Positions 3,631-23,183 of a DNA stretch of 64,000 bases are shown here, piece by piece. The position numbers and the translations under genes are program-made. The number at the start of each line of letters is the position of its first letter. The stretch's first letter is position 1. The stretch covers positions 2,636,001-2,700,000 of the forward strand of contig NZ_CP147737.1 in assembly GCF_037265215.1 (NCBI RefSeq), in the 5' to 3' direction. Source of the DNA: Xenorhabdus griffiniae. Lineage in GTDB: Bacteria > Pseudomonadota > Gammaproteobacteria > Enterobacterales > Enterobacteriaceae. The notes under the pieces were generated by a model, which was not told the DNA's origin, ran no database searches, and worked only from the letters and a program-made list of their open reading frames with translations.

Positions 3631-5088
3631 TTAAGTTTGTTTTTGAAATTTTGAGGCAAGGTCTATAGCTGCAAGAAGACTTGATAAGAGAGTTTCAGGA
3701 TCGTCTGTTGTGTTGTTTAATTGTTCAATATACGCCAAGAATGCTGCATCAGCTTGGGGATAGTATTTTGTGTAATCAGCTTTAATAGACTTAAATATAT
3801 CTTGTGCAGCATGACCACTTGCCCCAACTGGAATTACAACAAGACCGAGATTATGTGCAATTTCAAATTCCTTGATGCATCCATCGGCTACAACGATCTT
3901 ATCACCTTCGCTTTTGTTACCCATGAAGAAAATTGCAATACCAGCATAACTAATAACTTCTTGACGGTATTGTTTCCATATTCTTTGTCGTTCATCTATC
4001 TCTTTGATGTATTGCGGAAATGGTCTCATTATTAGATGATCAGCAATACTATCACCGTGATTTTGATATACCTTCTGAATAGCCCCTGTAATCAAAGCAT
4101 TTCCAATGCCTAAACCGATTCCTGATGAAATACGATATCCTTTTTCAATCAGGATATGCCCTAATCTACACAAAAATCCTTCAACTTTAGTTCGTGTCCA
4201 AGGTTCAAATACATGAGCACTCCCGGACAGAAAAATGGTATTACATCGATAAGTCATTTCGATTCGCCTCAAAATCGTAGCTATCTGGTCATAGCTGTCG
4301 ATTAAGAGAACTTTAACTTGGAACCGCTTCAGATCGTTAATGACTAGTTGTTGTTTAATCTCTGCATGGTTAAAGTCTTCGTCATTGTCGTAGTCTGTTC
4401 GACTACATGTTTTAAATATGCAGTAATGCTGCCGTTGATGTTCATTAAAATGAATTCGAATTCGACTCATAACATAATCGAGATTCGGGTCAGTAAAACT
4501 AAAGCCAAGGAAAAGAAATGTTTTTGATATTAGATCACCACTTAATGCATTGATGAAAGGCCCAAATGACATTTGGTAACGTTCATAGTCATCTTTCGTT
4601 ATTACAGCTTTATCTGGATGGTCGATATCACCGTGCATTTTGTAGATAACTGCATCTCGCTTTTTTTTAGTTATCGCTAGTTGGTTAGTTGTGTATTTAA
4701 CATCTGGGATTTTCCCTGCCTGCTCTAGTGCTTTTTCAATAAGCTTGTCATAATTAGTCGTCCAATATGTTGAAATCGGCAATCGAGCGAGAATATTATG
4801 GTTCATTGTTGGTTCTCGACTTACCCCTATTTCATCCATCAATTGCTGATTAAGTTTTCCCCTACCATTCGCATTATTGTGATATTGAGCAAGACTCACT
4901 AGGTCATGTTCGCGTTCAATATCGATTCCCAGCTCTTCAGCTAATGGGGTTAACAGTCGCTTCCAGTTTACATAACCAGCAGGTACGGATAGACCTGCCC
5001 CAGCAAATATTGCGGCGTTATTCTCGTTAAGCTCTTTAACGAAGTCTCTTATAAAGAGATCTATAGGTTGGTTATTTAAACTTGCCAT
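3631..5088 (-). CDS. thsA: ThsA, Thoeris NAD-consuming effector (SIR2-SLOG)
   Basis: Thoeris effector of 485 residues, close to the family's usual length. Residues about 1-280 are a SIR2-type NAD hydrolase: IFAGAGLSVPAG (27-38), TTNYD with Asn112, and YKMHGDI with His152; these positions match the known catalytic pair of characterised ThsA. Residues about 283-480 form a SLOG/TIR-signal sensor domain (IFLSGSAHVFEPW). When ThsB makes a cyclic ADP-ribose signal, ThsA is activated and depletes NAD, aborting phage infection. The start is the ATG inside the thsB stop (TAATG overlap), so the two are translationally coupled; an upstream in-frame start at 5103 is less likely. It appears intact. Confidence 0.92.
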   Translation of the reverse strand: MASLNNQPIDLFIRDFVKELNENNAAIFAGAGLSVPAGYVNWKRLLTPLAEELGIDIEREHDLVSLAQYHNNANGRGKLNQQLMDEIGVSREPTMNHNILARLPISTYWTTNYDKLIEKALEQAGKIPDVKYTTNQLAITKKKRDAVIYKMHGDIDHPDKAVITKDDYERYQMSFGPFINALSGDLISKTFLFLGFSFTDPNLDYVMSRIRIHFNEHQRQHYCIFKTCSRTDYDNDEDFNHAEIKQQLVINDLKRFQVKVLLIDSYDQIATILRRIEMTYRCNTIFLSGSAHVFEPWTRTKVEGFLCRLGHILIEKGYRISSGIGLGIGNALITGAIQKVYQNHGDSIADHLIMRPFPQYIKEIDERQRIWKQYRQEVISYAGIAIFFMGNKSEGDKIVVADGCIKEFEIAHNLGLVVIPVGASGHAAQDIFKSIKADYTKYYPQADAAFLAYIEQLNNTTDDPETLLSSLLAAIDLASKFQKQT

Positions 5089-5678
5089 TAACCTTCCACC
5101 CAATCAGAGAAATTGTTGTAACCATCATTTTCCACCCAGTCGTATACAGCTTTAAGCTTAGATAGCTGAATGCATTTGCCTCGATATTCAACAGGTGCTA
5201 GATTTTCCAGTCGGTAGCTTGCCGAACCATCAATTTGAGTATACGGATTCCATTTACCATTTTTCCATTCAAGCATTGTGACTGTTTTACCTGACTCACT
5301 CCACTCCACAGCCAGATAATCAAAAGGATTTTTTCCAAGCTCTTTAGTGGTACTGTCTTTGCCTTTGATGCTATTGATGTGAACCCCTAGTAGATTGTTT
5401 TCTCGTTTAAAGCTTTTAAATATTTCATAACGAACCCATGGGCGGAGGTAAGTCTGAGATCCAATCAAAACGCACGTGGTACTGGTATTTGTTAGCCCTC
5501 CATTGATAAGACGTTTTAATTCAATATCGCCTTTTTTCCTCGCTTCTTCCCAGATAGATGCATCGAAGTAACCTGCTTGCTCTCTATTTGGTTTCATTCT
5601 CCAGTGATTGCGCACGACATTTGCTCGAAAATCGATTACATCTTGGTAATGAAAACTGAAAAATACTCGCTTTGCCAT
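5088..5678 (-). CDS. thsB: ThsB, Thoeris TIR-domain sensor/cyclase
   Basis: A 196-residue TIR-like protein beginning MAKRVFFSFHYQDV. The block CVLIGSQTYLRPWVRYEIFKSF places a Glu at residue 85, the position of the catalytic Glu in characterised ThsB. On phage infection ThsB-type proteins make a cyclic ADP-ribose isomer that binds the ThsA sensor domain. It is the first gene of the pair, directly followed by thsA. The start at 5678 leaves a weak Shine-Dalgarno (GAGA); ATG at 5690 is an alternative. The region upstream to 5811 is AT-rich and must hold the promoter, since the IS1 remnant begins there. Confidence 0.9.
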   Translation of the reverse strand: MAKRVFFSFHYQDVIDFRANVVRNHWRMKPNREQAGYFDASIWEEARKKGDIELKRLINGGLTNTSTTCVLIGSQTYLRPWVRYEIFKSFKRENNLLGVHINSIKGKDSTTKELGKNPFDYLAVEWSESGKTVTMLEWKNGKWNPYTQIDGSASYRLENLAPVEYRGKCIQLSKLKAVYDWVENDGYNNFSDWVEG

Positions 5679-5887
5679 AGTTAGTCTCATGATTTTATTG
5701 TACTTATAAAATCCATGTTGGGCTGCGAAGCCTTAAAAACAAGTATTAATGTTAGATTTATTTGAAGATTGAGAAGTTGTATCCATTAACAAAACACGAT
5801 GTGCTTATCTGTTTCTCATTAGGTTCCCAGGCATACCAGAACCAGCTCTGATTCTTCTTGTTACCGACAAATGACCATTGTTGGTGA

Positions 5888-7800
5888 GTAGACCTGCCCA
5901 GTCACCCGGGCAGATCCCTCCTCAGAACCGGACATGCAGAACTACCGCATCCGGCTCCCGACAGATCCCAGTCGTCACACCTATTCAGCAAGAATTGAAC
6001 ATTGAATGGACTTTCCAGCTTGAAGGATAACCCAGCACTTTCAGGATCAGAGTCAGCTTTTCCCACGTTAGCCCCCGACGCCCTCCCTTCCGGTTAAACC
6101 ATCTGTAGAGTACCCGCTTGCTTTGGTAGATAAATTGCCCGACTCGTCTCTGGTTATCAGAAATACCGTGATAATTTATCCAGCCTTTGATAACCCTGAT
6201 GACGATAGTCAGAACACGCCTTTTGTCAGGTGTATTCAGGTTCTTCCAGAGGAAGTCCCTGAGCCCCTTCAATTTGGCGGCAAAACGGTCTTTTCGACTG
6301 GTCAACTTCAGTCGCCAGAAACCCTTTCGCGATACCCCCCAATAGCAGGTAAATCCCAGAAAGTTAAACGTAGGTAAGCGTCCGCCAGACTGGTTAGCTC
6401 TCATTGCTGCTACGTGACCCGCCGGAATTAATTGCGATTTGTCACTGTGCAACGCCAGACCGTATTGACTCAGTCGTTTCGGTAATATCTTATAAAAGCG
6501 TTTTGCCTCACTCAGGAACTCAAAGGTAAACACCCTATCATCAGCGTACCTGACCATTTCTGCCCGACCATGAATGTGTGAACGGCTGATTTCATCAAAC
6601 CATTCATCTATCACATAGTGCAGGTAGATATTGGCAAGTACTGACGATACGATTGACCCTTGGGGACATCCGCACACATTGTCGGATATCTGTTTATCCT
6701 CGATAACGGGTGCCGTTATTAAGACCTTGATGAGTCTGAGGAAACGGCGATCTGATATCTTCTTCCGCAGTCAATTCATCACCTCAATATGAGGTATCGT
6801 GTTAAAGTACTGTCGGATGTCAATTTCCACAACCGCCCCATTCCAGTTACGGTATGTTTGCTGTTGTAGTGCCTTCAATGCCGCATGGCAATTTAATCCC
6901 GGCCGAAACCCGTATGAACACGGCAGAAACAGCGGCTCATAAATTTGGCTGAGAATATCACTGACCGCAAGTTGCACCAGTTTGTCCTCTATGCACGAAA
7001 TTGCCAGTGGCCGTTGACTACCATCCTCTTTCGGGATCTGCGTGATTCTGGCGGCTTTCGGGCGATACGTCCCTCTGCGTATTTGCAGGATGAGATTGTG
7101 AATATTCCCATCAAGATGTTCACCGTAAGCGGATTTTGTCATGCGATCAATACCTACCGCTTTATTCCCGTCAAGCCGTAGGAATTGTCCTTTCAGCATG
7201 TCACTGTTCAGCAGATGCCCTAAATTATTGAACACTTGCTGTTTGTTACAGGCTGATTTCTTGCCTATACGCTCAAGTTTTGTTAACCATGGTTGTCCGT
7301 CGTTGCTGTGTACGGTCATTGTTTCCCTCTCACGTTCGATCTGTCTGCCAGCCCTTCGCTCCGCGATCATTACTCGTTTCATTACTACTATGGCTGACTC
7401 CGACTTCCTGATACCCATCTCTCAGGCCTTGTGTTTTGGCACTTGTGCCCGATATACTCATTCCCTTGAGAGGTGTCAGGATCTCCTGGGTTCCGCACTG
7501 TTCTCTACAGACTCGCCGACGCCTGAGACTCCGGTGTGTGCTTCTGACTGGAAAAAAAATCGCCAGTGTGCCCATTCAGAAACTATTGCCTGCTGGTTCG
7601 ACGATACCATCGGCACAACACAATCAGTGAATTTCGGAGTTATCACGTTCACCTATTGGTTTCGGCTCGAATGTTTCGCTGTCTACGCTTCATCTCCTTT
7701 GTTACCGCCGGAGATGCAAGACTCGCTACGTAGTGATCTGGCTAATCTTCTACGACGGGACTTTCACCCGCAAGAAACAGTGCAGCTTTTCCCAGCGCAC
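5888..7800 (-). mobile_element. group II intron inserted in IS1-family insB
   Basis: The 5' end on the minus strand is GTGCGCTGGG at 7800, matching the GUGCG group II start, followed by the conserved GUGAAAGUCCCGU-type segment. The catalytic domain V is recognisable at 5957-5925 (GAGCCGGATGCGG... with ...CATGTCCGGTTC on the other arm), followed by a domain VI-like hairpin and a 3' end at about 5888. Removing it rejoins the insB frame as E-I-D-E-Q-W. The 3' border is uncertain by one or two bases because the natural AC/AY end and the frame-restoring junction differ slightly. It encodes a reverse transcriptase with an internal stop. Confidence 0.85.
5985..7319 (-). pseudogene. ltrA: group II intron reverse transcriptase/maturase, in-frame TGA
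   Basis: Intron-encoded protein starting at ATG 7319 behind GAGAGGG. RT blocks are visible: GIDRMTKSAY, RPLAISCIEDKLVQ, SYGFRPGLNCHAAL, IDIRQYFNTIPH, GCPQGSIVSSVLANIYL, the catalytic MVRYADD, and a C-terminal maturase-type domain (INYHGISDNQRR...LGYPSSWKV). The only defect is a TGA at 6773-6771 directly after IEVMN; the following LRKKISDRRFLRL continues in the same frame, so a single base change (for example from TGG) would explain it. As it stands the protein is cut before the active site and the intron can move or splice only with help in trans. Confidence 0.85.
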
Positions 7801-8106
7801 CATCAATTTCACAGATAATTTGGCTTTTACTTCCCGCCAGAGGCCTTGTAGTTGACTGTTTTTGCTCAATTTTTAACATGCGAAGCACTGTATTTATGCC
7901 CACCTTCAGAACACGAGCGGTGTCTCTGATACTGCCGTTATTCACTGCCATACTCTCAATCTGGTCTTTCATTCCAGGTTTGCAGGTTTGGTAGGTGTAG
8001 TTCAGTTGAAAGGTTTTACGGCAGGCATAACAGTGATAATGCTGGTGTCCACTGCTTCCTTTTCATGCTCTTTGACCTCCTCTGATTTGTGGTAGTAACG
8101 ACATTA
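7801..8106 (-). pseudogene. IS1 insA/insB 5' fragment (5' exon of the intron)
   Basis: Contains CYACRKTFQLNYTYQTCKPGMKDQIESMAVNNGSIRDTARVLKVGINTVLRML (InsA) running on into LAGSKSQIICEID of InsB. The zinc-ribbon start is truncated and out of frame because one G is missing in the GAAAAGGAAGC stretch near 8035. It supplies the upstream exon of the group II intron. Close relative of, but distinct in sequence from, the IS1-family copy at 2246-2925. Confidence 0.75.
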
Positions 8107-8375
8107 TAGTTAATATATTAATTTATGTGATAAGTAGTAGGCAATTATGTAATTAATCTCTTCCCCAGCACCAACTGCACATATATGATATATGTAGAGT
8201 ATAAAACTGAGAGCAATGTAGAGCTAATAACTTCTTAAAGGCTGCTAGGTATTATAGAAGAAAATTATTTATGAATTAACAGCAGCCTTCTTAAGCCACA
8301 TTGCAATAATGTGAAATCTATAAAAACACTCTATCAACTAAGAAAATGTTTATTTCATAGCATGAGGTTTTGTTT

Positions 8376-9461
8376 ATGCACGTCGTTTACGGAGAAACTA
8401 TTAACGGTGTAATAATGAAGGTTCTAGAAAAAGTGCTCACTGAAGGTGTCAGAGTATCTACTAGAAACGGGGATGCAATAACTATCTATGATGTCAGTAT
8501 GATCTTGCAGAATCCGAGATCAAGGCATTTAAGTTTAGTTGGCCGAAAAAACAACATATTCTCCACTTTCGCTGAGACTATGTGGGTTCTAGCTGGTGAC
8601 AACAGGATTAAACCATACCTAACTTTTTTTCTCCCGAGGGCACCCAAGTATTCAGATGATGGTGTTATTTGGCGAGCAGCTTATGGAGAGAGGCTATATG
8701 CCTATGGACAATTAGAAAATGTTATACAACAGTTTAAAGAAGACGGAATCTTTACTAGACGTGCAGTCATTAGTTTATACATGCCCGACAGAGATACTAA
8801 TAAAAGTCTCAGAAATGTATACAATTTAGGAAATAGTTTAGATATACCCTGTAATAATTTAATACACTTCTTTATCACTCCAGACAAAAAGCTAAATATT
8901 AAAATTATTCAAAGAAGTGGAGATCTGATATTTGGTGTAAGTAATATAAATATTTTTGAGTTTAGCTTACTTCAAGAAATGGTACTTTGCATATTGCAAA
9001 GGGAAGTTGACAGCCAAATACAATTAGGATACCTGCATCAATCAGTCACAAACCTACATATTTATGAAAACAGAATACAGCAAGCTGAAGAAATATTAAA
9101 AAATAAAGAGCAGCAAATAACGAATCTCATAAATAATGATGAAATAACATTCCCTCCATCAGTATCCGAAACAAAGTTTTTATTTAATGATATAGTTTTA
9201 TTTATAGAGAAAAAAATAACATCTAAATCCACCAAAATAAACACCTTTAATAAGGAAGTCGAAGAGTTAAAGGATATATTCGATAAATATTTTGTAAAAA
9301 CTGAGGGCAACTTACTTTGGGGATACGCAGAAGCAACTTTAGCATATATTTTTCAAGAGAAACTTAATCAACCAATCGTATTAACCACCAAATTAAGTGA
9401 TGATTTTAACTTAAGTGTAAGTTCAAGTTATTTCAATAAGTTCACTAAGGAAAATATATGA
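8376..9461 (+). CDS. thymidylate synthase-like (putative dUMP hydroxymethylase)
   Basis: A 361-residue protein; residues about 1-210 match the thymidylate synthase fold: FAETMWVLAGDNRI (65-78), VIWRAAYGERLYAYG (97-111), catalytic-type Cys159 in DIPCNN, and IIQRSGDLIFGVSNINIFEFSLL (178-199) with the phosphate-binding Arg/Ser and conserved Asp and Asn. The Asn that selects dUMP over dCMP is kept. Residues about 215-361 are a helical extension not found in housekeeping ThyA. With a dNMP kinase and a 5-hmdU DNA kinase downstream, a dUMP hydroxymethylase role (making 5-hydroxymethyl-dUMP) is the best guess. The start is the ATG after TGAGG; a TTG six bases earlier is unlikely. Very AT-rich compared with the biosynthetic cluster. 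Confidence 0.8.
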   Translation: MHVVYGETINGVIMKVLEKVLTEGVRVSTRNGDAITIYDVSMILQNPRSRHLSLVGRKNNIFSTFAETMWVLAGDNRIKPYLTFFLPRAPKYSDDGVIWRAAYGERLYAYGQLENVIQQFKEDGIFTRRAVISLYMPDRDTNKSLRNVYNLGNSLDIPCNNLIHFFITPDKKLNIKIIQRSGDLIFGVSNINIFEFSLLQEMVLCILQREVDSQIQLGYLHQSVTNLHIYENRIQQAEEILKNKEQQITNLINNDEITFPPSVSETKFLFNDIVLFIEKKITSKSTKINTFNKEVEELKDIFDKYFVKTEGNLLWGYAEATLAYIFQEKLNQPIVLTTKLSDDFNLSVSSSYFNKFTKENI

Positions 9462-10012
9462 AAATTGCATTTATGGGAGTGTCAGGTAGTGGTAAGGATT
9501 TCCTGGCTGATTATTTAATATTAAATAAGAATTTTATTAAATTATCGTTTAGTGACCAGCTTAAGAAATTAGCTAACTATATTTACCCATGGATGGAAAA
9601 AGACTATCCTCCTGAAAGAAAAATGTTACCACTAAATATTACCCTACCTACAGGTGAATCAATCCATCACTCTCCCAGAGATATATGGCTAAACCTCAAC
9701 AATCTAAGAAATATTGAAGAAAAAATATTTATCAGAATGCTCTCTGAAGAGTTAAAACTCTTGGAAGAAAATGGCAAAGTTAAAAAAAATATAATCATTA
9801 CTGACATAAGGTCTAATGAAGAGTTTTTATGGTGTAAGAATAACCATTTTACTGTGGTTCATATCAACAGAAAAGACAATGATTATGAGAATTATGATAT
9901 TGACAAGTATATAAGTAAAAATAAAATAAGAGCAGATTATCAATTTAATAATGATATAATAGGAATAAATAAATTTAAATCTTTCTTCGAAGAGGTATTA
10001 TTCTGTGAATAG
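9458..10012 (+). CDS. deoxynucleoside monophosphate kinase-like P-loop protein
   Basis: A 184-residue P-loop kinase. The N-terminal MGVSGSGKDFLADYLI is a Walker A typical of phage-type dNMP kinases (GxxGxGKD), and IIITDIRSNEEFLWCK resembles the DxR lid/substrate region of T4 gp1-like kinases. It overlaps the stop of the thymidylate synthase-like gene by four bases (ATGA) and so is translationally coupled. Expected role: phosphorylate 5-hydroxymethyl-dUMP (or a similar unusual dNMP) to the diphosphate so it can reach the dNTP pool. Substrate is inferred from context only. Confidence 0.78.
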   Translation: MKIAFMGVSGSGKDFLADYLILNKNFIKLSFSDQLKKLANYIYPWMEKDYPPERKMLPLNITLPTGESIHHSPRDIWLNLNNLRNIEEKIFIRMLSEELKLLEENGKVKKNIIITDIRSNEEFLWCKNNHFTVVHINRKDNDYENYDIDKYISKNKIRADYQFNNDIIGINKFKSFFEEVLFCE

Positions 10013-10505
10013 CAAAAATGATCAGCTTTTTTGTAATGTCAGAGAAAAGAAAATAAAAAACGCTAATCCTAGTTTGAATGAGGATGTTATTAAGGAATGG
10101 TTTCATCATCAACGAGAGCGAACGTCCATATATTATAAAAAAGAAATACTTAACCTTCCTCCTTTTTGGACAAATGACGAAATATTGAAAAAGTATAAAT
10201 TTGTAAATACGAAAAGAATATGGGATAGAGAAACAAAGTGGTTATTAAAAAATGTAATTAAAAATAATTATGTAACTTATGAGAATAAGCTTCTTAATTC
10301 ATTTTTGTTTAGAGTTATAAACAAAAGTAGCACCTTAACGAAAATTAACGCTCCTTTTGATTTCTCAAGAATGAATATTGATTACATCAATACAACAATC
10401 AGAGAAAAAACTCACACTATACATATAACAAATCCAGACTATGTGTTTTTTAGTGCCGCTTATATTTTAGGAGGTCCTAAAGTTAGTTTTGGAAGATTTC
10501 TATAA
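10005..10505 (+). pseudogene. 5-hmdU DNA kinase-type protein, N-terminal half
   Basis: First 166 residues of a 5-hydroxymethyl-dU DNA kinase-like protein (the family once called alpha-glutamyl/putrescinyl thymine pyrophosphorylase). WFHHQRERTSIYYKKEIL, LPPFWTNDEILKKYKFVNTKRIWDRETKWLL is the characteristic helical-domain pattern. GTG start at 10005 behind AGAGG, overlapping the kinase gene by eight bases. An in-frame TAA at 10503-10505 ends it; the next codons continue the same family alignment without a shift, so the full gene is 10005-11009 interrupted by one stop codon. Either a recent nonsense mutation, readthrough, or a two-piece protein. Confidence 0.72.
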
Positions 10506-10532
10506 ATAGAGGAGGGTATAACTGAAAAAGAT

Positions 10533-11009
10533 ATGGTTCTTAGGATGATAAAGTTTGTGTTTTACAACCAAGAAAAGATAGTAAAAGGAATCAAAGTAGC
10601 GGCGAATCAACTTGAAGTATTTAATCATCTTAAATCATTCCCTGGGATTGGGGACTTTCTTGCATATCAGATATTTATAGATTTTACATACATAGCAGTT
10701 TTCCCTTTTACTGAGATGAACTTTGTTGTTGCAGGTCCCGGATGTGAAAGAGGGATAAATTGGATTTTTTCTAACAGAGATGGAATGAACAGTGAAGAGT
10801 GTTTGTTTTGGTTTACAATGAACCAAAATAAAATTGCAGATAAGTATAATGAAAAATGGATCATGGATGAAATTTTTCACTTTCTACCTAAAGAAGAAAG
10901 AATCTATACTCTAATGGATATGGAGAACAGTGGCGCATGTGAAATTGACAAAAGATGCCGCACAAAGTTTAGTAACAAAAGACCAAAACAAAAATATCAT
11001 TACCAATGA
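10533..11009 (+). pseudogene. 5-hmdU DNA kinase-type protein, C-terminal half
   Basis: The same frame as the preceding half. It contains the family's helix-hairpin-helix-like core LKSFPGIGDFLAYQIFIDFTYI and the hallmark AGPGCERGINWIF, followed by a lysine-rich tail. In phages this family phosphorylates the hydroxymethyl group of 5-hmdU already in DNA, activating it for further decoration. A possible restart exists: GAGGAGGG at 10510-10516 lies 17 bases before ATG 10533, longer than ideal. Both halves together (about 335 codons) match the usual family length. Confidence 0.72.
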
Positions 11010-11064
11010 CAATAATAACTTGAGATTATTTTGATATAACCAATCTCTTAGAAAAGGTTTAGAA

Positions 11065-11556
11065 ATGACTAAAGAAATTAGGAAAAACGTCTTTGTTAGT
11101 CATCATCACAAAGACGATGCTAGTGTTGATGGAATTTCACGTTTAGCTGCTACAAAGGGTTATCAACTAAGAAATAGTTCTGTAAGAATGAAACCTGAAA
11201 ACCAACGAAGAGTTGAGGAAAAAAAGGTTAGTGATAGAACAATAGCGCGTTTGCTGAGAATGAAAATGAGATGGGCTAGTCAAGTTATAGTCGTTATCGG
11301 CAAAGAAACACATACAAGACCTTGGGTAAACTGGGAAATTAAAGTAGCTCACCAACTTGGAAAACCAATCATAGGTGTATATGAAAATGGTTTAAAAGGA
11401 GATGTCAAACTACCAGAAAATCTCGAAAAATATGCAACCTCTATCGTAGGTTGGAGAAGTGACTCCATTATCAACGCATTAGAGGGTAATACTAGCTTTC
11501 AAAATCCCGATGGGACAGAACGAGATAAAATCCAAGGTAGGAATGTTGTATGCTAA
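11065..11556 (+). CDS. TIR-like (ThsB-type) protein
   Basis: A 163-residue TIR-like protein: KNVFVSHHHKDD at the start (strand A and first loop) and VIVVIGKETHTRPWVNWEIKVAHQLGKPIIGVY, with Glu91 in the WVNWEI helix where TIR NADases/cyclases keep their catalytic Glu. It resembles ThsB in the RPWVxxEI block but is clearly divergent. It follows the modification genes by 55 bases and its end overlaps the Nmad2 gene by seven bases. Likely role: NAD-derived signal producer or NAD-degrading effector, with the neighbours as sensor or marker. No SIR2-SLOG partner is next to it. Confidence 0.75.
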   Translation: MTKEIRKNVFVSHHHKDDASVDGISRLAATKGYQLRNSSVRMKPENQRRVEEKKVSDRTIARLLRMKMRWASQVIVVIGKETHTRPWVNWEIKVAHQLGKPIIGVYENGLKGDVKLPENLEKYATSIVGWRSDSIINALEGNTSFQNPDGTERDKIQGRNVVC

Positions 11557-12215
11557 TCGAACCAGACTCTCATCTCTATGCCTATGCGATAACACGAGAC
11601 TTCGGTTTTGCTCCTAACCCATTTCAAGGCAGGTGTACGTTGGCTACATGCAAACCTAAAATTAGGCAGTCTGCTAATGTAGGTGATTGGGTTTTAGGAA
11701 TTGGTGGAGCTAATTTAAAACTAGTCAAAAGGAATTGTATTCTCTTAATGAAAATTACTGAAAAAATTAGTTTTAATGATTATTGGGAAGATCCTAGGTT
11801 TTCTATCAAAAAGCCAGTTCGAAATGGGAGTCATGTACAGATGTTGGGAGACAATATCTACCATCACGATGATAACGGTGAATGGATACAAGAAGATTCA
11901 CACCATAGTAATGCTGATGGTTCATTTAATATGGCCAATTTAGAGCGTGATACTCGTTCTGATCAAGTATTGATTTCAGAACATTTCTATTATTTTGGAG
12001 ATAAAGCTGTTGCAGTAGACTTAGAGTCAATTGGATATCATAGGAAAATTAGAGACTATATAAAAATTCGCTTAGATGACTGTATACCTGCTATTAATCT
12101 TATAAAAAAAATAGATCTTGAGTATAGAGGCGATAAAAATTTAGTCATTTCAGATCCATGTCAATTTTCTGATTTCTATAAGCGTGTTGATCAGAAAACT
12201 GGAGAGTTCTACTGA
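11550..12215 (+). CDS. Nmad2 (nucleotide modification associated domain 2) protein
   Basis: A 221-residue protein with the Nmad2 signature near its start: LYAYAITRDFGFAPNPFQGRCTLATCKPKIRQSANVGDWVLGIGG. Nmad domains were defined by their repeated association with modified-base synthesis genes and are thought to read or handle modified nucleotides; no enzyme activity is established to my knowledge. A second conserved-looking block is SDQVLISEHFYYFGDKAV. It overlaps the TIR-like gene (ATG within the last codons), which argues that the two work together, with this protein possibly sensing a modified or unmodified base. Confidence 0.8.
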   Translation: MLIEPDSHLYAYAITRDFGFAPNPFQGRCTLATCKPKIRQSANVGDWVLGIGGANLKLVKRNCILLMKITEKISFNDYWEDPRFSIKKPVRNGSHVQMLGDNIYHHDDNGEWIQEDSHHSNADGSFNMANLERDTRSDQVLISEHFYYFGDKAVAVDLESIGYHRKIRDYIKIRLDDCIPAINLIKKIDLEYRGDKNLVISDPCQFSDFYKRVDQKTGEFY

Positions 12216-12451
12216 ATATAAGAAGGTGATAGAGAGGCTCACTAGAGCCTGTAATGAGCTCTGGCAACATCAATACCGGCACAAATCATTTCAGTCATGG
12301 TTCTTCGGCTCCCATTCTTGCAAATGCGAATTTTGTTTCAAGCACTGTTCGGGTTTCTCGAAGAAAAGTAACAACCATGCGTCGAAAGCTCATTAACGGG
12401 CTTAATCCCTTGATGGTTATCTGACTGCATGATTGTTGCCAATTACCGGTC

Positions 12452-12530
12452 CGACTGGCGGTTATTATTGAAACCGCCACACTCAATGCGACTGAATTGG
12501 CTGAATATTGCCGTCAGAAAAGGTTCTATC
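12452..12530 (+). pseudogene. IS3-family transposase orfA remnant
   Basis: The frame reads LAVIIETATLNATELAEYCRQK, resembling the N-terminal part of IS3-type OrfA proteins, then loses similarity. No start or full helix-turn-helix is left. The surrounding 12216-12600 region has no gene that I can support and looks like insertion-sequence scar at the end of the AT-rich operon. Confidence 0.4.
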
Positions 12531-12601
12531 ATTTCACGCTCAAGATTTTAGGTGAAAAATTATCATTTACAAACTAGATTACAAATTAAAGTAGATTATT
12601 T

Positions 12602-12862
12602 CTATAATTTATTGCGAATCTTACGCTCAACCAGCTGGCCATGCTGATCAAAATATCGACTGGGCCAGATCTCTGAGGGATGGATGCCAAGGTAATTTGC
12701 GATAATCCATTCACCTTTAGGCCACGGCCTACTAAATGTATTTGCTAATGTCGATGAACTGAGTCCTGCCTCACGAGAAACTGCGGCTAAGGTTGTGCCA
12801 CGTTTACGCAGTGCAGCGATGATATCGGCCTGATGCCAATCATTTCTAATGTTGTTATTCAT
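12602..12862 (-). CDS. Nlp/Ner-type transcriptional regulator
   Basis: An 86-residue helix-turn-helix protein of the Mu Ner / Nlp (SfsB) family. DWHQADIIAALRKRGTTLAAVSREAGLSSSTLANTFSRPWPKGEWIIANYLGIHPSEIWPSRYF spans the whole DNA-binding domain. The start at 12862 follows AAGGGG by about seven bases; an ATG at 12880 is a poorer choice. In Mu-like phages Ner represses early transcription; chromosomal homologues are often linked to mobile elements. It may regulate the neighbouring recombinase or be the last relic of a Mu-like element. Confidence 0.85.
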   Translation of the reverse strand: MNNNIRNDWHQADIIAALRKRGTTLAAVSREAGLSSSTLANTFSRPWPKGEWIIANYLGIHPSEIWPSRYFDQHGQLVERKIRNKL

Positions 12863-13111
12863 TCCTGCTACCCCTTCCATTAATTAATATTGATGGTGGT
12901 GATTCAGACAGGGTTCGCAGTACCGGGACACTCGTCCGGCGAGACCGAAGTCTCCCCCGCCTGAACCACCATTGAAAAGGCGATAACAGGCACACTGGTA
13001 GAAACATCCTACCAGTGGAGTGTCTTTAAGGCTGCGAAACCTTACCATTAGATTTTGCTAATGGCGGGAATACTTTAACTGATTGTTTTATCTAACTCAA
13101 TAACCGAACGG

Positions 13112-13987
13112 CTAAGTTGAACGACTATAAACCCGCTCAACATAACGCCCGCGGCCATCACCGTGCCCCAAATCCATTGAAACCAGCGCTCTTGCTTCCT
13201 GATGGCTAAAACCATTTTGTTGGTAAAAATTAAGCGCATCCTGCGCCCACGCATAGCGCAAACTATGGGGAGAATAGCAGCCGATTAAACCAATCTTTGT
13301 GGTATGTGCCCGCCAGTAGTTCATGGCCTGCCGGAGATCGGGTTTATCAATCAACCTGCCGCCACGTTGTTCTGTAATAACAATCGCCTGTTCAACAGCC
13401 TCTTTCACCGCTGCAATATCCAGTACGCGGGTTTGCCTTGGCCGGCCTCCTTTTGTACCAAAAACAACATGCAGTTTTGGCTCTGGTTGCTCTAATTGTT
13501 TGCGCCAGCTTTTCAATGACGCACTACATTGCACAGCTTCCTGAGAACGTAATCCCAGTAAGCGGGCAAGTTTCAAGGTGACGGCAAATCCAACATCACG
13601 TTCAAGCGCTTTCTGATAAACAACCTGAAATGTAGTATCAGGGATCGCCTGTTTCGTTCCGGCGCGGCTGGTGCCGCTTAATCCTAATGCCTGATTACTC
13701 AAGCGCGGCGAAGTTTCCAGTTTCTCACGACCAGCCATACGGAAGATATTACGCAGTGCCGCCATTTCATTTTGCACCGTTCGCTTAGCAATGCCTTGAG
13801 ATAAGCGGGCATCAACATACTGTTCTACATGCTTGGTCTTCAAATGACCGAGACTTTTCACCTGAATATTCAGGCTCAACAACAATGCGCCCAGACGTCC
13901 GGCAATCCGAATGCGGTCATGGCAGGTTTTATGGCTGCCGCCGCCTTGCCGGGCAAAAAACTTTAATTCTTTCATCAATCGACTCAT
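13112..13987 (-). CDS. tyrosine recombinase (integrase-domain protein)
   Basis: A 291-residue recombinase of the integrase-domain family common in enterobacterial genomic islands. N-terminal SAM-like domain about 1-100; catalytic domain with Arg in LGLRSQEAVQ, HSLRYAWAQD (His/Arg box), LGHGDGRGRYVERVYSR (His and candidate Tyr nucleophile). Start at 13987 after GGAG; residues Met5 is an alternative. It sits 36 bases from a long inverted repeat (14023-14093) that may be its site or operator. Probably the integrase of an element that carried part of this accessory region. Confidence 0.85.
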   Translation of the reverse strand: MSRLMKELKFFARQGGGSHKTCHDRIRIAGRLGALLLSLNIQVKSLGHLKTKHVEQYVDARLSQGIAKRTVQNEMAALRNIFRMAGREKLETSPRLSNQALGLSGTSRAGTKQAIPDTTFQVVYQKALERDVGFAVTLKLARLLGLRSQEAVQCSASLKSWRKQLEQPEPKLHVVFGTKGGRPRQTRVLDIAAVKEAVEQAIVITEQRGGRLIDKPDLRQAMNYWRAHTTKIGLIGCYSPHSLRYAWAQDALNFYQQNGFSHQEARALVSMDLGHGDGRGRYVERVYSRST

Positions 13988-14022
13988 CCATTTTTCTCCA
14001 CTGATATCCTACAACCTACGAT

Positions 14023-14093
14023 CTCTGGCGCGCGTCAATGTGGCAAAACAAAATGCACCGGTTTTGCCCTTGACGAATATCTGTGCGCCAGAG
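14023..14093. repeat. long imperfect inverted repeat beside the recombinase
   Basis: Left arm CTCTGGCGC...CGTCAA..GGCAAAAC, right arm its complement GTTTTGCC..TTGACG...GCGCCAGAG, with about nine unpaired bases on the right arm between the two paired boxes. This two-box layout with bulged bases is reminiscent of recombinase attC-like folded sites, but could equally be an operator or a cis-acting RNA hairpin. Confidence 0.5.
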
Positions 14094-14934
14094 TGAACGC
14101 AGGTTGAGGTATTGCGGGGTATCGGTTGAGTACACGGTACTGCCGCCTGTATGAACAGGTCATCCCCACCGGCGAAAAGCCAGCCTCGATATCGTCAAGT
14201 TCTCCTTTTCCAATCTAAAAATGCAGTGTCAGATTCACTGTATAGTGAAGCAGGCGTGAGTCTGTCAGGGTTGGGTTGTGCTTTGGCTGCGGCGTCACTT
14301 TCAGCGGTAACCCGCAAAAAGTGACGCCTTGAGTTTTCGAACAATCAGCAAAGACTATGAAAGCGTTGAAATACCAACGGGTACAGCAAAACGCCGCCAG
14401 ATTCAATGTCAAACGGTAGTCATGCGTTAATGGTTTAGCGGTAGAAAAATTGTCTGTTGAATAATTCAAACAGGGATAGATAAAAGTATGAACGGATGCG
14501 CAAAAGCCATCCTGTTGTTCATTGAAGATAAATAGGATTTATGTTGATTTGAAAAGTCAGTGTATGAACCCACGTTCAACACCCTTCGGCGACAAGATAA
14601 AAACACCTTTTGGGCGTATTTTTAGTTTAAGAAACCTTCATTACCAGACAAGGGTTTTATGTCTGACAATATCTGCTTCCAAAGGTGGGCAGATGTACCG
14701 CAATCTTGCTCTCCCTTTCAGGCTACAGGAGTTTTGTTTCGCCACCCGAAGGCGATCCTGACAGGCGATGGATCTTTGATAACAATTAAATATTTTATCG
14801 GTTGGAACGAGTAGGGTCAAATTTTTATTTGATATGAAATTGAGAAAAAACGATAGGGATAATCTAGGTAACAGCTCTTCCTACCGCTTTCAAAGTAAAT
14901 TTTCTTATTGAGGTCTGTGATGATTCCCTTATAC
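14094..14934. other. intergenic region with hairpin and possible small ORF
   Basis: No convincing gene. It contains an 11-bp inverted repeat GGCGTCACTTT/AAAGTGACGCC (14291-14301 and 14318-14328). A short frame at 14659-14814 (51 codons) ends in LFRHPKAILTGDGSLIT and looks like the Ash-type small phage reading frames, but has no good ribosome binding site. The stretch reads like repeated intergenic or island-end sequence. Confidence 0.35.
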
Positions 14935-15561
14935 TTATCTGCTATGCAGCCATTCGCTCTCCATTAAAGGAGACATATGTCCTCCTATCCAATTAATTAA
15001 CCGTGCATTTAGTCGGCTGGCAAAAGTATGTTGTAGTAAAGGAGGTGTTAGCAAATCTTGCTGTGTGATTACATAGCTAACTGGACAGCTCAAGTTAGTT
15101 ATACGTGGTGGTGGCGGAGCAAGTAATAACTGCACTGGCTCACTTGGTGCTAAAGGAACAGATTGGCCTAAAAGTGTGAGGAAGCGTTCAGGTTTATGTA
15201 AGTGGATACGACCACTACTTATATCCAACCTACAAATTTCTGATAACGCCTCTTGTCCACTCTCTTGATAGCTTTCAAAAGCACTGCCACCTTGGCTAGT
15301 CAGCGCACTCAATAACCATAAATGGCTAACCTTTTCTCCCAATCGTGCTGCCAGGCATTGTGCTAGATATCCTCCGAAACTGTGACCAATAATTTCTATT
15401 GGTTTATTAAAAGTCGAGGCAAGCATTTCTGCTTCATCTAACCAATATTGGAGGTCACACTCTGATTGGTCTCTAATATCATCTACATCTTCCCCAATCA
15501 AATTTGGAGACCAAACACCACGACGTAAAAAAAAACCTGAAATCAGAATACGTGCAGTCAT
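14935..15561 (-). CDS. alpha/beta hydrolase (thioesterase-like), last gene of the operon
   Basis: A 208-residue alpha/beta hydrolase. ILISGFFLRRGVW forms strand 1/oxyanion region, IEIIGHSFGGYLAQCLA holds the nucleophile Ser (GHSFGG), QQDLLTP the acid region and WIGGHMSP the catalytic His. The ATG at 15561 overlaps the transporter stop (ATGA). Possible roles are editing thioesterase, product release, or hydrolysis of a protected product. It differs from the second thioesterase at 23822, so the cluster has two such enzymes. Confidence 0.78.
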   Translation of the reverse strand: MTARILISGFFLRRGVWSPNLIGEDVDDIRDQSECDLQYWLDEAEMLASTFNKPIEIIGHSFGGYLAQCLAARLGEKVSHLWLLSALTSQGGSAFESYQESGQEALSEICRLDISSGRIHLHKPERFLTLLGQSVPLAPSEPVQLLLAPPPPRITNLSCPVSYVITQQDLLTPPLLQHTFASRLNARLINWIGGHMSPLMESEWLHSR

Positions 15562-16799
15562 AGTGTAGTTACCCCACTTTGTGTCCGTTTCATCGCATTT
15601 ACAGTACGTTGTAGTATCATGGTGAGCAAACAAAGCCCAGCCAGACTAAGAAAAAGTATCTGGTGGTTGCCAAGATCCAACATTAAACCACCATACAATG
15701 GAGCAACGGCACTACCCAGTAGGTAGAGGTTAGCGGCACCAAAATAGCTCCCACGTAACGCATTTGGGGTTATCTGATCCACTTCAACACTGAAGGTAGG
15801 GAATACTACCAATTCCCCCAGACTAAGGATGATCGTTGCTATAGCGAGCATATAAAATTGTGTAACAGGAGCAAAAGCGAATAACAGCTGTGCCAGTAAC
15901 ATCATTAATAGTCCTGTTATTAGCCTAACTCCAGTCGAATAACGTTGTAACAGACGTAATAAGGGAAACTGAGAGATAATAATAGTCAGAGCATTAATCG
16001 CAATCAGGGTAGCAATCAACGACATAACATTTGGTACATGACTACGAGTGAGATATTGGACCAATGTGGAATCAAAGCTGGCATATACTAAGGCTGCTAA
16101 CATATTACAAAGCATCAACAAAGCAAAAAGTCGATGACGGATCATTTGTCCGCAGGCGGCAAAAAACGTAGAAGATGTGGTACTAGTTTGCTTTGGTGTA
16201 GTACTTCGCCATACGGTATAGTGCAGTGAGCGCCATAGTAACAGACCATAAATAAAATAGATTGAGGCAGTGATTAAAAAGGTTAAGCCTTGTTTGTCAA
16301 CACCTAAGGTCACCCCAAATAATGGGCCTACCGCAGCGCCGGCATTGATAGCGTAATAACGGCAATAGAGTGCCAGCTCACGCGAAGCCTTATCATTAAT
16401 ACGATCTCCTATCAATGCCTTGCAGCTGGATTCAAGTAGAGCACAACCGATACTGACACCAGCAATACCAATGCCATACAGTGCGGGGTTATTACCATAG
16501 CTTAGCAAGACAAAAGCCAGTGCACTCAATGTGGTTCCACAAAGTATAAGGCGTTTACGACCAAAACGATCTGATAACCAACCAGTATAGACGCCGCTGA
16601 TTGCACCAAAGATGATAGCTATGGAGAGTAAGGCACCAATGGTAGTTGCAGAGAAGTTGAACTGGCGGTACAAGATCACTGCTAAAAAAGGCCAGATCAT
16701 AAAATAGGCTCCCCGCGTTAGCAGGGTGCCTACCAACATCAAATGAATTTCTGCAGGTAGAGCACGAAAACGTGCCAAGGTAAAGGTTTTACTCTGCAT
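15558..16799 (-). CDS. MFS exporter of the biosynthetic cluster
   Basis: A 413-residue major facilitator with about 12 hydrophobic segments. The loop 2-3 signature GWLSDRFGRKRLIL is present. The start chosen is ATG 16799, four bases after the oxygenase stop; an upstream GTG (16835) would overlap that gene. It is the only transporter in the operon and lies in the inner membrane, so it probably exports the product or gives self-resistance. It resembles the drug/metabolite exporters often found in siderophore and antibiotic operons. Confidence 0.85.
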   Translation of the reverse strand: MQSKTFTLARFRALPAEIHLMLVGTLLTRGAYFMIWPFLAVILYRQFNFSATTIGALLSIAIIFGAISGVYTGWLSDRFGRKRLILCGTTLSALAFVLLSYGNNPALYGIGIAGVSIGCALLESSCKALIGDRINDKASRELALYCRYYAINAGAAVGPLFGVTLGVDKQGLTFLITASIYFIYGLLLWRSLHYTVWRSTTPKQTSTTSSTFFAACGQMIRHRLFALLMLCNMLAALVYASFDSTLVQYLTRSHVPNVMSLIATLIAINALTIIISQFPLLRLLQRYSTGVRLITGLLMMLLAQLLFAFAPVTQFYMLAIATIILSLGELVVFPTFSVEVDQITPNALRGSYFGAANLYLLGSAVAPLYGGLMLDLGNHQILFLSLAGLCLLTMILQRTVNAMKRTQSGVTTL

Positions 16800-16803
16800 C
16801 GGA

Positions 16804-17757
16804 TCACCATGTCTTATCTGCCAGGACGCCACCACGCAAAGTTCCTGCGTCTACACTATGAAACAAAGGCAAAAAACTTGTGGGTAATGGACGAGTAAAC
16901 TCACTGCTAAGCCAACAACGCAACAAGCAACGATCATGTTTTTCATCATTTTCAAAACAAGTGCGAGCATGTAATGTAATGTGGTTATTGACCATTACCA
17001 ACATTCCTTTACTGAAGTTCAGTTCAGCGTAATGACCAGGCTGTTCAACAATTGAATCCATATCTGTTAACATCTGTTTGATTTCTTGTGACTGCTCTAT
17101 GCCATGGCGAACTACTGAGTCGTTAAATTTACGTATATAACGTAAAACGAATTGATCATGATTTTCACTCAATAGCGGCAAAGCAATCCAAGATTGATCA
17201 CCTTCATCACGCAAATCATGAGGAATGGGCTTTTTTAGGTGAGAAAGCCAAGTAAACTGGCGTTGTTCTGCTTGCAATACTACATCGGCAGAAGAACGAA
17301 TGCGAAAAGCACCTCCGCGAGCAGCAGGGCTCCAACAACCCAGCACAGTGATATCTGCCCTATCAGAATGAAAAGCGAGCTCTTGATTAGTTAAGTGTCC
17401 ACGTTGTGGCATATTAAGACTATCGCGTACACCATGATCACGAACTTCTTTTAAGTAATGTCCTTGTTTGTTAATTGAAACTGGAATACCAAACCAAAGG
17501 CAAAACTTATTAAACAATGCTCGAAATGGCTCAGCCGATAGAGATTTGAGCATTGGGGAATCATGCACTACTACACCACTTTCCAACTCAAGTTCTCGAT
17601 GCAAATTACGACGCAATATATCATCGCTTTTATCAGGTTGATAGCCTTCCGCCATTGCGCTAAGCAGAGCTTCCAGCGACTGATTAAAACGAGCCGAACG
17701 TTCAAACACGATATTTCCTCGCCAGGCAATCGGGCGCGGGTAGGAAGAAAAACTCAT
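16804..17757 (-). CDS. TauD/clavaminate synthase-like Fe(II)/2OG dioxygenase
   Basis: A 317-residue non-haem iron oxygenase. The iron ligands HxD appear in ELAFHSDRADITVLGCW; the distal His is probably in NNHITLHART and the 2-oxoglutarate-binding Arg in DRCLLRCWLS. The pattern matches the TauD/CAS-like family, which hydroxylates free or carrier-bound amino acids, often at the beta carbon of Asn/Arg. It overlaps the preceding amidotransferase gene by four bases. A likely task is hydroxylation of an amino acid building block. Confidence 0.82.
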   Translation of the reverse strand: MSFSSYPRPIAWRGNIVFERSARFNQSLEALLSAMAEGYQPDKSDDILRRNLHRELELESGVVVHDSPMLKSLSAEPFRALFNKFCLWFGIPVSINKQGHYLKEVRDHGVRDSLNMPQRGHLTNQELAFHSDRADITVLGCWSPAARGGAFRIRSSADVVLQAEQRQFTWLSHLKKPIPHDLRDEGDQSWIALPLLSENHDQFVLRYIRKFNDSVVRHGIEQSQEIKQMLTDMDSIVEQPGHYAELNFSKGMLVMVNNHITLHARTCFENDEKHDRCLLRCWLSSEFTRPLPTSFLPLFHSVDAGTLRGGVLADKTW

Positions 17758-19349
17758 AAATTCACCTCATATTCTTGTTGCCAAAGGGAAAGCGTAGTTA
17801 GAGTAAAAAGTTGAGTATTATCCGCCGTTTCTATATATGCAGGCGTTAAATTCACCAGACCGATATTGCGTAATGTCTCGCAGTGTTCCTGCAGATAATG
17901 ACGCATTTCCTGTACTGCTTTAGGCCAATAGGCGAAGGGTAATCGGAAGTGCTGCTTAGGTTTCCATTGCCAGTTTGGTAGCCGTTTCTTGAGTAAATTA
18001 CATAGTGGGGCTTTAGTTATACCATCCACAAGGCGTGTAGAACGACTTGCCAGCATACCGAGTCCAGCATGTAAATAAGGTGTCCGAGCTTCAATTGTGC
18101 GTGACATCAGGAGATGATCAGCTCGACGCAGCAGAGGCTCCAAAGAGTAATGCAGATCGAAATAGTCAATAGCTGCTTCATACCCTTTCTTTAGGGCTGA
18201 ATGAGAAATTTCTTCAATTTGATCATTCAATTCAGAAGCAATTTTAGAAGAAAATAACTTTGCTTTGTTTTGGTAGTCGCCGAACCAAATGCGAGCAAAG
18301 CTGCCTGCATCATGTATCTTTGATTGTTGTAGGTCAAGGTGGCGAGGATAGCCCCAGAACAACTCGTCAGCACCCTCCCCCAACAATACACAGTGGTATC
18401 CTGCATCCCCGACTGCATCCGCTAATTGTTGATACATCAGCAGGCTAGACATACGGGTTGCTGTACCAAAGTTTTTTACCGCCTTTCGCAACACAGGCAT
18501 AAAAGCGGCTTGTTCCAGATAAATCCGATGCAAATTGGGTTGTTGGTGCACTGACTCCTCGGCACTTTCTAAGGCCAAAGTGAATTTAGCTATATCAGGC
18601 TTCATCCAGGTATTAAGCAGAGTTGAGTCTATCCCTCCACTGAGTAACAGTGCTGATGGACGAAATGTCGCTTTACAATGGCTGATAGCCTCACCTAATG
18701 TTTCTTCAATTGAATGCGATGATGGTTCAGTTTGAGGAGAAAAATGCTGGCGTTGAATCAACTGTGCTTGCCCTTTGCTAAGCGTAAATCTTAACTGCTC
18801 CCCGGGGGCGACAAGGCGTATACCGGAAAATAAACTTTCGCCTTCTAAAGTAACCCCTGTTGCCACAGCCTGAGCTATCGCAGCGATATTTGGTGCACAC
18901 TCACCCAACAAAGTCAGTATCGGTGTAAGCTCGGATGAAAATATCAGCCGTCCACGATCTGCTTGATAAAAATAGTAGAGAGGTTTGATGCCGTAACTAT
19001 CACGTTGTAGTGTCAATGAAGCACTATGCGGTTGCCATAATGCCAGCGCAAACATTCCATCTGGCAGTATTCCTTTTTTTATTCCCTCACAAAGCAAGCG
19101 AACTTCATCCACAATTCCCACATTTGGAGAGTAAACTTCACCATTATATGCGGCATAAGTTTCTCCATATTTCACTGGTATTGGTAGTGAGGCTGCACTA
19201 GACATTGGCAGGCGTGTCATTCCTAATGCACCTGCAGGCAAGTCAACAAATCCATTACCATAAGGACCTCGATGATGAAGATCCTGAAGTGCTTGACGAA
19301 AACGAGCACCATCAAACCCTGGTCCAATATCACCCAAAATGCCACACAT
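17754..19349 (-). CDS. asparagine synthetase B-like amidotransferase
   Basis: A 531-residue protein of the AsnB/beta-lactam synthetase superfamily. It starts MCGILGDIG, so after Met removal the glutaminase nucleophile Cys1 is exposed; AAYNGEVY supplies the glutamine-binding Asn/Glu. The synthetase domain has the ATP-pyrophosphatase loop LLLSGGIDSTLLN near residue 230 and GEGADELFWGYPRH. Because the Cys nucleophile is present, glutamine-dependent amide formation is favoured over beta-lactam closure (those enzymes usually lack it), but intramolecular cyclisation remains possible. The Cys2 rule also fixes the start codon. Confidence 0.85.
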   Translation of the reverse strand: MCGILGDIGPGFDGARFRQALQDLHHRGPYGNGFVDLPAGALGMTRLPMSSAASLPIPVKYGETYAAYNGEVYSPNVGIVDEVRLLCEGIKKGILPDGMFALALWQPHSASLTLQRDSYGIKPLYYFYQADRGRLIFSSELTPILTLLGECAPNIAAIAQAVATGVTLEGESLFSGIRLVAPGEQLRFTLSKGQAQLIQRQHFSPQTEPSSHSIEETLGEAISHCKATFRPSALLLSGGIDSTLLNTWMKPDIAKFTLALESAEESVHQQPNLHRIYLEQAAFMPVLRKAVKNFGTATRMSSLLMYQQLADAVGDAGYHCVLLGEGADELFWGYPRHLDLQQSKIHDAGSFARIWFGDYQNKAKLFSSKIASELNDQIEEISHSALKKGYEAAIDYFDLHYSLEPLLRRADHLLMSRTIEARTPYLHAGLGMLASRSTRLVDGITKAPLCNLLKKRLPNWQWKPKQHFRLPFAYWPKAVQEMRHYLQEHCETLRNIGLVNLTPAYIETADNTQLFTLTTLSLWQQEYEVNL

Positions 19350-20827: not shown

Positions 20828-20835
20828 CTGTCCTC

Positions 20836-22955: not shown

Positions 22956-23176
22956 GTAGGGTGCTCCATACTTCTGACCAAGGTTTCAAAACAAGGTGCA
23001 GCCTGAAAATCCATAATTTTTGGTGCATGATTAAATTGTCGAGCAAAGCGTGCTAGAAAAGTCACCATTTTCATTGAATGATTTAATAGTTCCTTGAGGG
23101 ATTCATCAATATTGGCTTCTGAAATCTCTCTATCAGGGAAAATAATTTTTAGATTATCAATTACCCATACTTTCAT
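22952..23176 (-). CDS. small hypothetical protein in the biosynthetic operon
   Basis: A 74-residue protein without recognised domain, seven bases after the oxygenase gene and overlapping the aldolase start (ATGA). It is acidic/helical in the middle (EANIDESLKELLNHSMKMV). It lacks the DSL/GxxS phosphopantetheine motif, so it is not a typical carrier protein, and lacks MbtH motifs. Strict coupling on both sides suggests that it is a real, needed part of the pathway, perhaps a small scaffold or carrier-like helper. Confidence 0.65.
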   Translation of the reverse strand: MKVWVIDNLKIIFPDREISEANIDESLKELLNHSMKMVTFLARFARQFNHAPKIMDFQAAPCFETLVRSMEHPT

Positions 23177-23183
23177 ATTTGCC

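Follow-up and report, generated by a model that had tools for sequence, protein, structure and literature searches.

An operon of Xenorhabdus griffiniae joining base-modification genes to a TIR-Nmad2 pair, a probable portable anti-phage unit

A 64,000-nucleotide stretch of the Xenorhabdus griffiniae genome (RefSeq assembly GCF_037265215.1, contig NZ_CP147737.1, positions 2,636,001 to 2,700,000; hereafter the window) carries five same-direction genes for a thymidylate synthase (TS) homologue, a deoxynucleoside monophosphate (dNMP) kinase, an HMUDK_hel protein, a ThsB-type TIR protein and an Nmad2 protein (Table 1). On balance these genes probably form one portable anti-phage operon that would write, read and signal. 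Across related loci, TIR-Nmad2 is a core met with exchangeable base-modification modules and with exchangeable Thoeris type I or III, SLOG or patatin effectors. To our knowledge, the means by which Thoeris-type TIR proteins sense infection is known in few cases; here the usual partner of the TIR is a predicted modified-base reader and the neighbours are deoxyuridine/thymine-type modification enzymes, which makes the trigger directly testable.

A first-pass annotation, made from the letters of the window, had named the domains of the five genes, and profile matches confirm all of them in place, together with the overlaps it had described: 4 nt between genes 1 and 2, 8 nt between genes 2 and 3 and 7 nt between genes 4 and 5, with a gap of 55 nt separating genes 3 and 4. 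The block is AT-rich, as had been said, with a GC content of 28-36% per kb that lies below both flanks (36-48% over the preceding 5 kb and the following 2 kb). Both residues put forward as catalytic are invariant: Glu91 of the TIR in 13 of 13 aligned rows, some of them distant TIR proteins, and the TS cysteine in 20 aligned rows, this being residue 159 when counted from the ATG at 8376 and 161 from the TTG at 8370. Gene 4 is related to the solved ThsB-type chains 6lhy and 9b7d, and no nuclease domain was detected in the five operon proteins at the thresholds used for Pfam, PADLOC and PHROG profiles.

Gene 1 keeps its catalytic residues across all 20 aligned rows and matches Serratia phage enzymes at 37.2-37.7% identity over 99%, among them that of phiMAM1, a member of the Ackermannviridae. 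In an alignment read by eye, with host ThyA compared, the Asn177 equivalent is kept and the Trp80/83 equivalents are absent, as in the phiMAM1 enzyme; with the meaning that these residues presumably have, homology and active-site pattern mark gene 1 as a probable deoxyuridine monophosphate (dUMP) hydroxymethylase. The identity of gene 3 proposed in the first-pass annotation, a kinase of the type acting on 5-hydroxymethyl-deoxyuridine (5-hmdU) in DNA, is rejected: the strict Walker A motif (G-x4-GK-S/T) occurs in 0 of 39 rows, three looser Walker-type matches in the HMUDK_hel alignment fall at differing, unconserved places, and an intact relative is modelled with a glycosylase/transferase-like fold, close to HhH-GPD glycosylases and PUGT. 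The model suggests that HMUDK_hel is no kinase and resembles the phage 5-phosphomethyl-dU glycinyltransferase, putting the 'kinase' label on this family in question; its best sequence match among solved structures, at E 0.1, is not credible. The family has an invariant Glu and an invariant Lys. The P-loop 5-hmdU DNA kinase profile PF18748 finds nothing in the six operon genomes of the family described below, 14 control genomes being silent as well, and matches phiMAM1 at 1.4e-116. Nmad2 also lacks a credible sequence relative among solved structures (best E 0.11), and gains a predicted fold and role from its structural model (pLDDT 89.8), which matches YTH-type readers and the N-terminal domain of Thermococcus McrB and suggests a YTH/EVE/ASCH-like modified-base reader.

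The five-gene order, which the first-pass annotation had proposed to seek elsewhere, recurs in 16 of 16 matching Escherichia coli genomes and in 6 of 6 genomes of the family. Near and distant searches alike match 16 of 5,426 complete E. coli genomes, all 16 holding at least 80% of the block at about 80% identity to the window, with an IS1 element inside the matched stretch in one. Among 392 family genomes, Nmad2 is found in six and HMUDK_hel in the same six, a coincidence with a chance of 1/C(392,6) = 2e-13, so that the TIR-Nmad2 pair and the 5-hmdU-type genes occur together beyond chance. All six have the order TS-DNMK-HMUDK_hel-TIR-Nmad2, with solely the TIR gene between HMUDK_hel and Nmad2. 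Loci from Xenorhabdus, Buttiauxella, Photobacterium, Brenneria and two Erwinia share it, at least two of them being the same records as among the six family genomes. The operon is accessory: one sampled genome of the same species and four of the same genus give no match to Nmad2.

A profile scan of genome contigs returned 544 Nmad2 relatives, the best 80 of which were read, a sample biased towards the kin of the query that nonetheless covers nine phyla; 76 of these loci have a callable plus-strand Nmad2 open reading frame (ORF), L027, L046, L065 and L077 being left out. A TIR gene lies directly upstream of Nmad2 in 68 of the 76 under a wider overlap tolerance (63 of 77 by a stricter criterion), and 73 have a base- or nucleotide-modification gene no more than 6 kb away, the total flank of the other three being below 4.4 kb. 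At the same distance, 60 have a gene of effector type (ThsA, SLOG2, SLOG3/ThcA, TIR388/ThcB4 or patatin). Both kinds of neighbour thin out with distance from Nmad2, modification genes from 0.33 per kb in the 1.5-3 kb range to none in the 8-10 kb range and effectors from 0.19 to 0.02 per kb. Modules consist of TS with HMUDK_hel in 29 loci, MazG_C with a UDG-type protein in 18, MazG_C with HMUDK_hel in 18, and other, partial or no combinations in 11. By NCBIfam, a SLOG3 representative is Thoeris type III ThcA (NF058525) and a TIR388 representative is ThcB4 (NF058526), and PADLOC assigns TIR388 and TIR190 representatives and the operon TIR to ThsB families.

On an Nmad2 tree of 77 rows, built by a quick method, the spread of module types implies no fewer than 12 changes and that of effector types no fewer than 21, or 22 with the label of the window, which was set by hand to ThsA as that gene lies 6.4 kb from Nmad2, beyond the distance rule. 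The clade of the window (seven rows, SH-aLRT 95) has TS/HMUDK_hel modules throughout, and its neighbouring effectors are ThsA in Photobacterium and, by the hand-set label, in the window, ThcA/ThcB4 in Buttiauxella, Brenneria and Erwinia phyllosphaerae, SLOG2 in Erwinia rhapontici, and none seen in Xenorhabdus L082. Since effectors differ within one clade, the operon acts like a portable arm set beside varied effectors.

Several of these loci show further variation. MazG_C and a UDG-type protein replace TS/HMUDK_hel beside TIR-Nmad2 also in L006 and L008, and one representative of the UDG profile, in L066, has no Pfam or NCBIfam match. In L010:5505-10147, on a Parabacteroides plasmid, and in the viral contig L093, TIR-Nmad2-HMUDK_hel is followed by a radical SAM protein, another module variant. 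L086:13618-15234 encodes a patatin phospholipase and an LD_cluster2 SLOG match in one protein, CBASS-lipase-like by NCBIfam and adjoining TIR388/SLOG3 genes, possibly a further SLOG-gated effector. In E. coli, where the operon proteins are WP_196522960, WP_002911703, WP_002911704, WP_002911710 and WP_023143489, the two copies inspected, L002 and L003, lie at the tRNA-Asn/cob region with ArdC, MobC and VirB genes upstream, from which a setting like that of an integrative and conjugative element is inferred; 3' of the block stands an AAA_15 ATPase or, past insertion sequence genes, an Mrr-type gene (Mrr_cat, L003), and then a multi-TIR/SLOG array. The array recurs next to the operon at L002:18248-22178, L003:18698-22631, L091 and L116-L118, and is made up of a 251-aa protein, ThsB-type TIRs, a TIR of 400 aa and an LD_cluster2 SLOG protein. 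Its 251-aa member has no Pfam or PADLOC match; the copy in L003 has two hydrophobic stretches at its N-terminal end.

Relatives of the operon Nmad2 are absent from 50,697 phage records at E 1e-5, and 2.9 million viral contigs yield seven Nmad2 loci. An origin as an intact prophage is ruled out on these counts, and the annotated placement outside a phage region holds: the unit is bacterial, mobile and non-phage, not one found solely in intact phage genomes. Module genes occur in six of the seven viral loci, beside Nmad2 in L092, L093, L094 and L096, as a TS-like ORF a few genes off in L095, and as DCD- and UDG-like genes in L097, where no Nmad2 ORF was called; L098 has none. Among plasmids, seven loci were inspected out of 16 matching records, and six have module genes, L007, cut off by the end of its record, showing none. 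The row L009:3637-4230, which is not Nmad2, was left out of the Nmad2 alignment.

Gene content and order, conservation, co-occurrence, the exchange of modules and neighbours and the predicted folds are directly observed or computed, and the following course of events is pictured from them. By homology and active-site pattern, the TS homologue would make 5-hydroxymethyl-dUMP and the dNMP kinase would raise it towards the triphosphate; the modified base would enter DNA or stay in the nucleotide pool, and HMUDK_hel, by its predicted fold a base-flipping-type enzyme, would process it. Nmad2, judging from its predicted fold and near-constant pairing, may recognise the modified or processed base and gate the TIR of the overlapping gene, which would consume NAD+ and give an ADP-ribose-type signal or NAD+ depletion. 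The adjacent SLOG-type effectors (ThsA, ThcA/ThcB4, SLOG2, patatin) are, from their co-location, likely amplifiers.

Because the reader fold is of a kind that binds a modified base and a nucleotide-level writer would mark any DNA being made, we lean towards positive triggering during phage replication, in which tags build up on the fastest-made DNA, that of the phage in an infected cell, until a threshold fires the TIR; this is held tentatively, as the preferred of several triggers, none of which we regard as established. A broader version, more speculative again, is that the family writes its own danger mark: TS, DCD, MazG_C and dNMP kinases would seed a non-canonical deoxyuridine base, HMUDK_hel or UDG would process it, and Nmad2 would turn its density into a TIR NAD+ signal feeding interchangeable SLOG effectors. 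If true, base-modification immunity would here work by replication-coupled tagging and not by self-protection.

The first-pass annotation had envisaged a host system that marks DNA and answers through TIR when a mark is missing or foreign. The modification genes, TIR and Nmad2 do form one recurrent operon, but the version in which a missing mark is the cue is weakened, since the writer would act at the nucleotide level without evident site specificity. That version would resemble restriction-modification, with hypermodified thymine in host DNA and mark-bound Nmad2 restraining a TIR that unmarked phage DNA, or loss of the mark, sets free. Writer-type and reader-type genes do share one operon, and a signalling output would stand in for the nuclease domain missing from the five proteins; such a writer would mark the phage DNA made in that cell as well, however, and the MazG_C/UDG versions without TS do not suit such a scheme, which we consider unlikely. 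Positive triggering is likewise preferred to the sensing of liberated nucleotides, whereby a dedicated unusual nucleotide, stored in DNA or pool, is freed or depleted by phage enzymes degrading host DNA and Nmad2 informs the TIR, on the analogy of decoy-nucleotide sensing (Panoptes). Many module enzymes come from deoxypyrimidine nucleotide/NTP families (TS, DNMK/TMK, MazG, DCD) and Nmad2 is predicted to be reader-like, as this would have it, but the DNA-glycosylase-like predicted fold of HMUDK_hel is left without explanation and no phage trigger is known; we hold this, too, to be quite unlikely.

Several observations weigh against the reading of the five genes as one tightly coupled unit. Among 369 genomes of the class, Nmad2 occurs in six and HMUDK_hel in four, and both solely in that of the window; of the five other Nmad2 loci, one has TIR, MazG_C and UDG, whereas in four the 7-16 kb covered hold no such gene. 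The three remaining HMUDK_hel loci carry MazG_C and/or DCD, with TS besides in one of them, and lack TIR-Nmad2. The MazG_C/UDG versions without TS fit no proposed model without further assumptions. Core and modules being sometimes apart in class genomes, they are separable, as modular parts would be. Such separation would also be expected of two cargo units, a phage-derived modification cassette shielding a mobile element from restriction in transfer and a TIR-Nmad2 Thoeris arm: phages, Ackermannviridae included, carry relatives of gene 1 and gene 3, the E. coli copies L002 and L003 adjoin transfer genes and an ArdC-family gene, and the three class genomes just mentioned have modules without the pair. 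Two unconnected units are nonetheless improbable, given that both halves occur together in 6 of 6 family genomes and in 16 of 16 E. coli, that 73 of 76 Nmad2 loci have a module gene no more than 6 kb away and that phage records give no Nmad2 match; the pair and the modification genes are mostly, not always, together, and the notion that they are always apart fails.

For the window itself, the description of a five-gene operon stands in its genes and their order, but an in-frame TAA at 10503-10505, which had been overlooked, breaks gene 3 into two ORFs matching HMUDK_hel profile positions 3-132 and 142-277. Gene 3 is uninterrupted in Xenorhabdus L082, in both inspected E. coli copies (L002, L003) and in the five other family genomes. 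This copy is probably without a full-length gene 3 and may be inactive, which counts against the operon reading as applied to the window. A second lesion, suspected from a C-terminus shorter than in E. coli, was dropped because gene 3 of L082 ends at nearly the same place. Window positions 8042-14774 align at 91% to L082, a Xenorhabdus vietnamensis contig in which gene 3 is uninterrupted, and each gene or gene piece gives a dN/dS of 0.05-0.23 in this comparison, suggesting selection on the operon genes until recently. Whether the window copy is a decaying remnant that itself does nothing, irrespective of the family at large, is evenly balanced: the stop, the likewise split reverse transcriptase nearby and the five sampled congeneric genomes, one of them conspecific, without the operon speak for decay, whereas genes 1, 2, 4 and 5 have open frames and show conservation against L082 (dN/dS 0.07-0.23), and the stop in gene 3 may be a sequencing error.

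The operon had been described as next to Thoeris. The ThsA/ThsB pair is confirmed, but it is divergent and ends 2.7 kb before the operon, with a group II intron reverse transcriptase between (Table 1). Around the island are DDE and IS1 transposase ORFs (80-607, 2308-2898), and possible transposase remnants at about 7900-8060 and about 12220-12560 were guessed by eye only. Farther along, 14935-24430 on the minus strand holds a biosynthetic-type cluster (thioesterase/hydrolases, an MFS transporter, TauD and PhyH dioxygenases, asparagine-synthase-like, AMP-binding, methyltransferase and HMGL-like proteins), whose TauD and asparagine-synthase-like pair presumably recalls beta-lactam-type clusters.

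Table 1. The operon and its nearest neighbours, in positions of the window.
Feature	Positions	Strand	Evidence
Gene 1, thymidylate-synthase superfamily, probable dUMP hydroxymethylase	8370..9461 (start TTG 8370 or ATG 8376)	+	PF00303 1.7e-19; phrog_3676 4.4e-82
Gene 2, P-loop dNMP kinase (DNMK family)	9458..10012	+	PF21448 1.7e-8; phrog_139 (dNMP kinase) 6.7e-28; Walker A GVSGSGKD
Gene 3, HMUDK_hel protein	10005..11009 (pieces 10005-10505, 10533-11009)	+	PF18723 7.2e-19 and 1.7e-29
Gene 4, ThsB-type TIR, 163 aa, catalytic Glu91	11065..11556	+	PF08937 ThsB_TIR 2.9e-20; PADLOC ThsB PDLC00418 2.7e-71
Gene 5, Nmad2, predicted YTH/EVE/ASCH-like modified-base reader	11550..12215	+	PF18753 3.5e-65; fold matches
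ThsA (SIR2-STALD/SLOG), Thoeris effector, outside operon	3631..5103	-	PF18185 1.3e-65; PF13289 2.8e-32; PDLC00407 1.8e-203
ThsB partner of ThsA, outside operon	5088..5690	-	PF08937 1.5e-17; PDLC04688 1.1e-58; PDLC00431 3.1e-58
Group II intron reverse transcriptase, split by in-frame stop	5985..7418	-	RVT_1 in ORFs 6771-7418 and 5985-6677, same frame
HTH_35 regulator; tyrosine integrase (downstream part of same island)	12602-12880; 13112-13987	-	Profile matches, L082 alignment

Among known systems, Thoeris type I, described with one ThsA and one or multiple ThsB genes (PMC11204291), shares with the operon a TIR of a PADLOC ThsB family with its catalytic Glu; in that system the TIR makes a cyclic ADPR signal that activates ThsA. 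Some 3 kb separate the operon from a ThsA/ThsB pair, and in Photobacterium L087 the two are adjacent for ThsA, a place that other effectors take elsewhere. The operon differs in having no ThsA of its own and in pairing its TIR with Nmad2 and base-modification enzymes. Type III Thoeris, for which a literature search found no paper, supplies ThcA- and ThcB4-type proteins as frequent neighbours of TIR-Nmad2 (Buttiauxella, Brenneria, Erwinia phyllosphaerae), but neither is in the operon, and our own SLOG3 (ThcA) and TIR388 (ThcB4) profiles match no ORF of at least 60 aa in the 64-kb window. Phage thymidine hypermodification (Ackermannviridae such as phiMAM1; PUGT of PaMx11) has in common a TS-type enzyme, a dNMP kinase and HMUDK_hel relatives, the predicted fold making HMUDK_hel a candidate transferase of the aG/PT-PPlase type, whereas the operon is without a detected P-loop 5-hmdU DNA kinase, sits on a bacterial mobile element and is coupled to TIR and Nmad2. 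With type IV restriction the likeness is one of predicted fold, since the Nmad2 model matches, besides YTH-type readers, the N-terminal domain of McrB from Thermococcus; the operon differs in its TIR output and in having no nuclease domain detected.

Likely earlier predictions in this field are those of Burroughs 2015 and Iyer 2013. The DefensePredictor study (PMC13092281, Science 2026) validated 42 of 94 transcription units cloned from 69 strains of E. coli, lists thymidylate synthase and 5-hydroxymethyluracil kinase among newly validated defence domains, and in the legend of its Fig. 3, on validated E. coli systems, spells out TS, dNMPk, 5hmdUk and NMAD one after the other. Further systems predicted there contain aGPT-PPlase, MazG, MazG-C, dUTPase and a nucleotide-modification associated domain, several credited to Burroughs 2015. 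The four domains of the legend fit genes 1, 2, 3 and 5 in legend order, in an E. coli system (by its place in the legend perhaps DS-4) that is reported to protect MG1655 from phage, and the sole DNA matches in 5,426 E. coli genomes are 16 whole units, so that identity with the present operon is very probable, if not proved, a DNA search being one that would miss divergent systems. The statement that the combination matched no described system is thus probably overtaken. The legend lists no TIR, the sections covered give no mechanism, and the window copy differs in its broken gene 3. In literature seen mostly as titles and abstracts, no other description of TIR-Nmad2 with these modules was recognised. 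The present analysis adds a proposed architecture of writing, reading and signalling for the whole family, together with predicted folds and the observation that modules and effectors are exchanged around a TIR-Nmad2 core.

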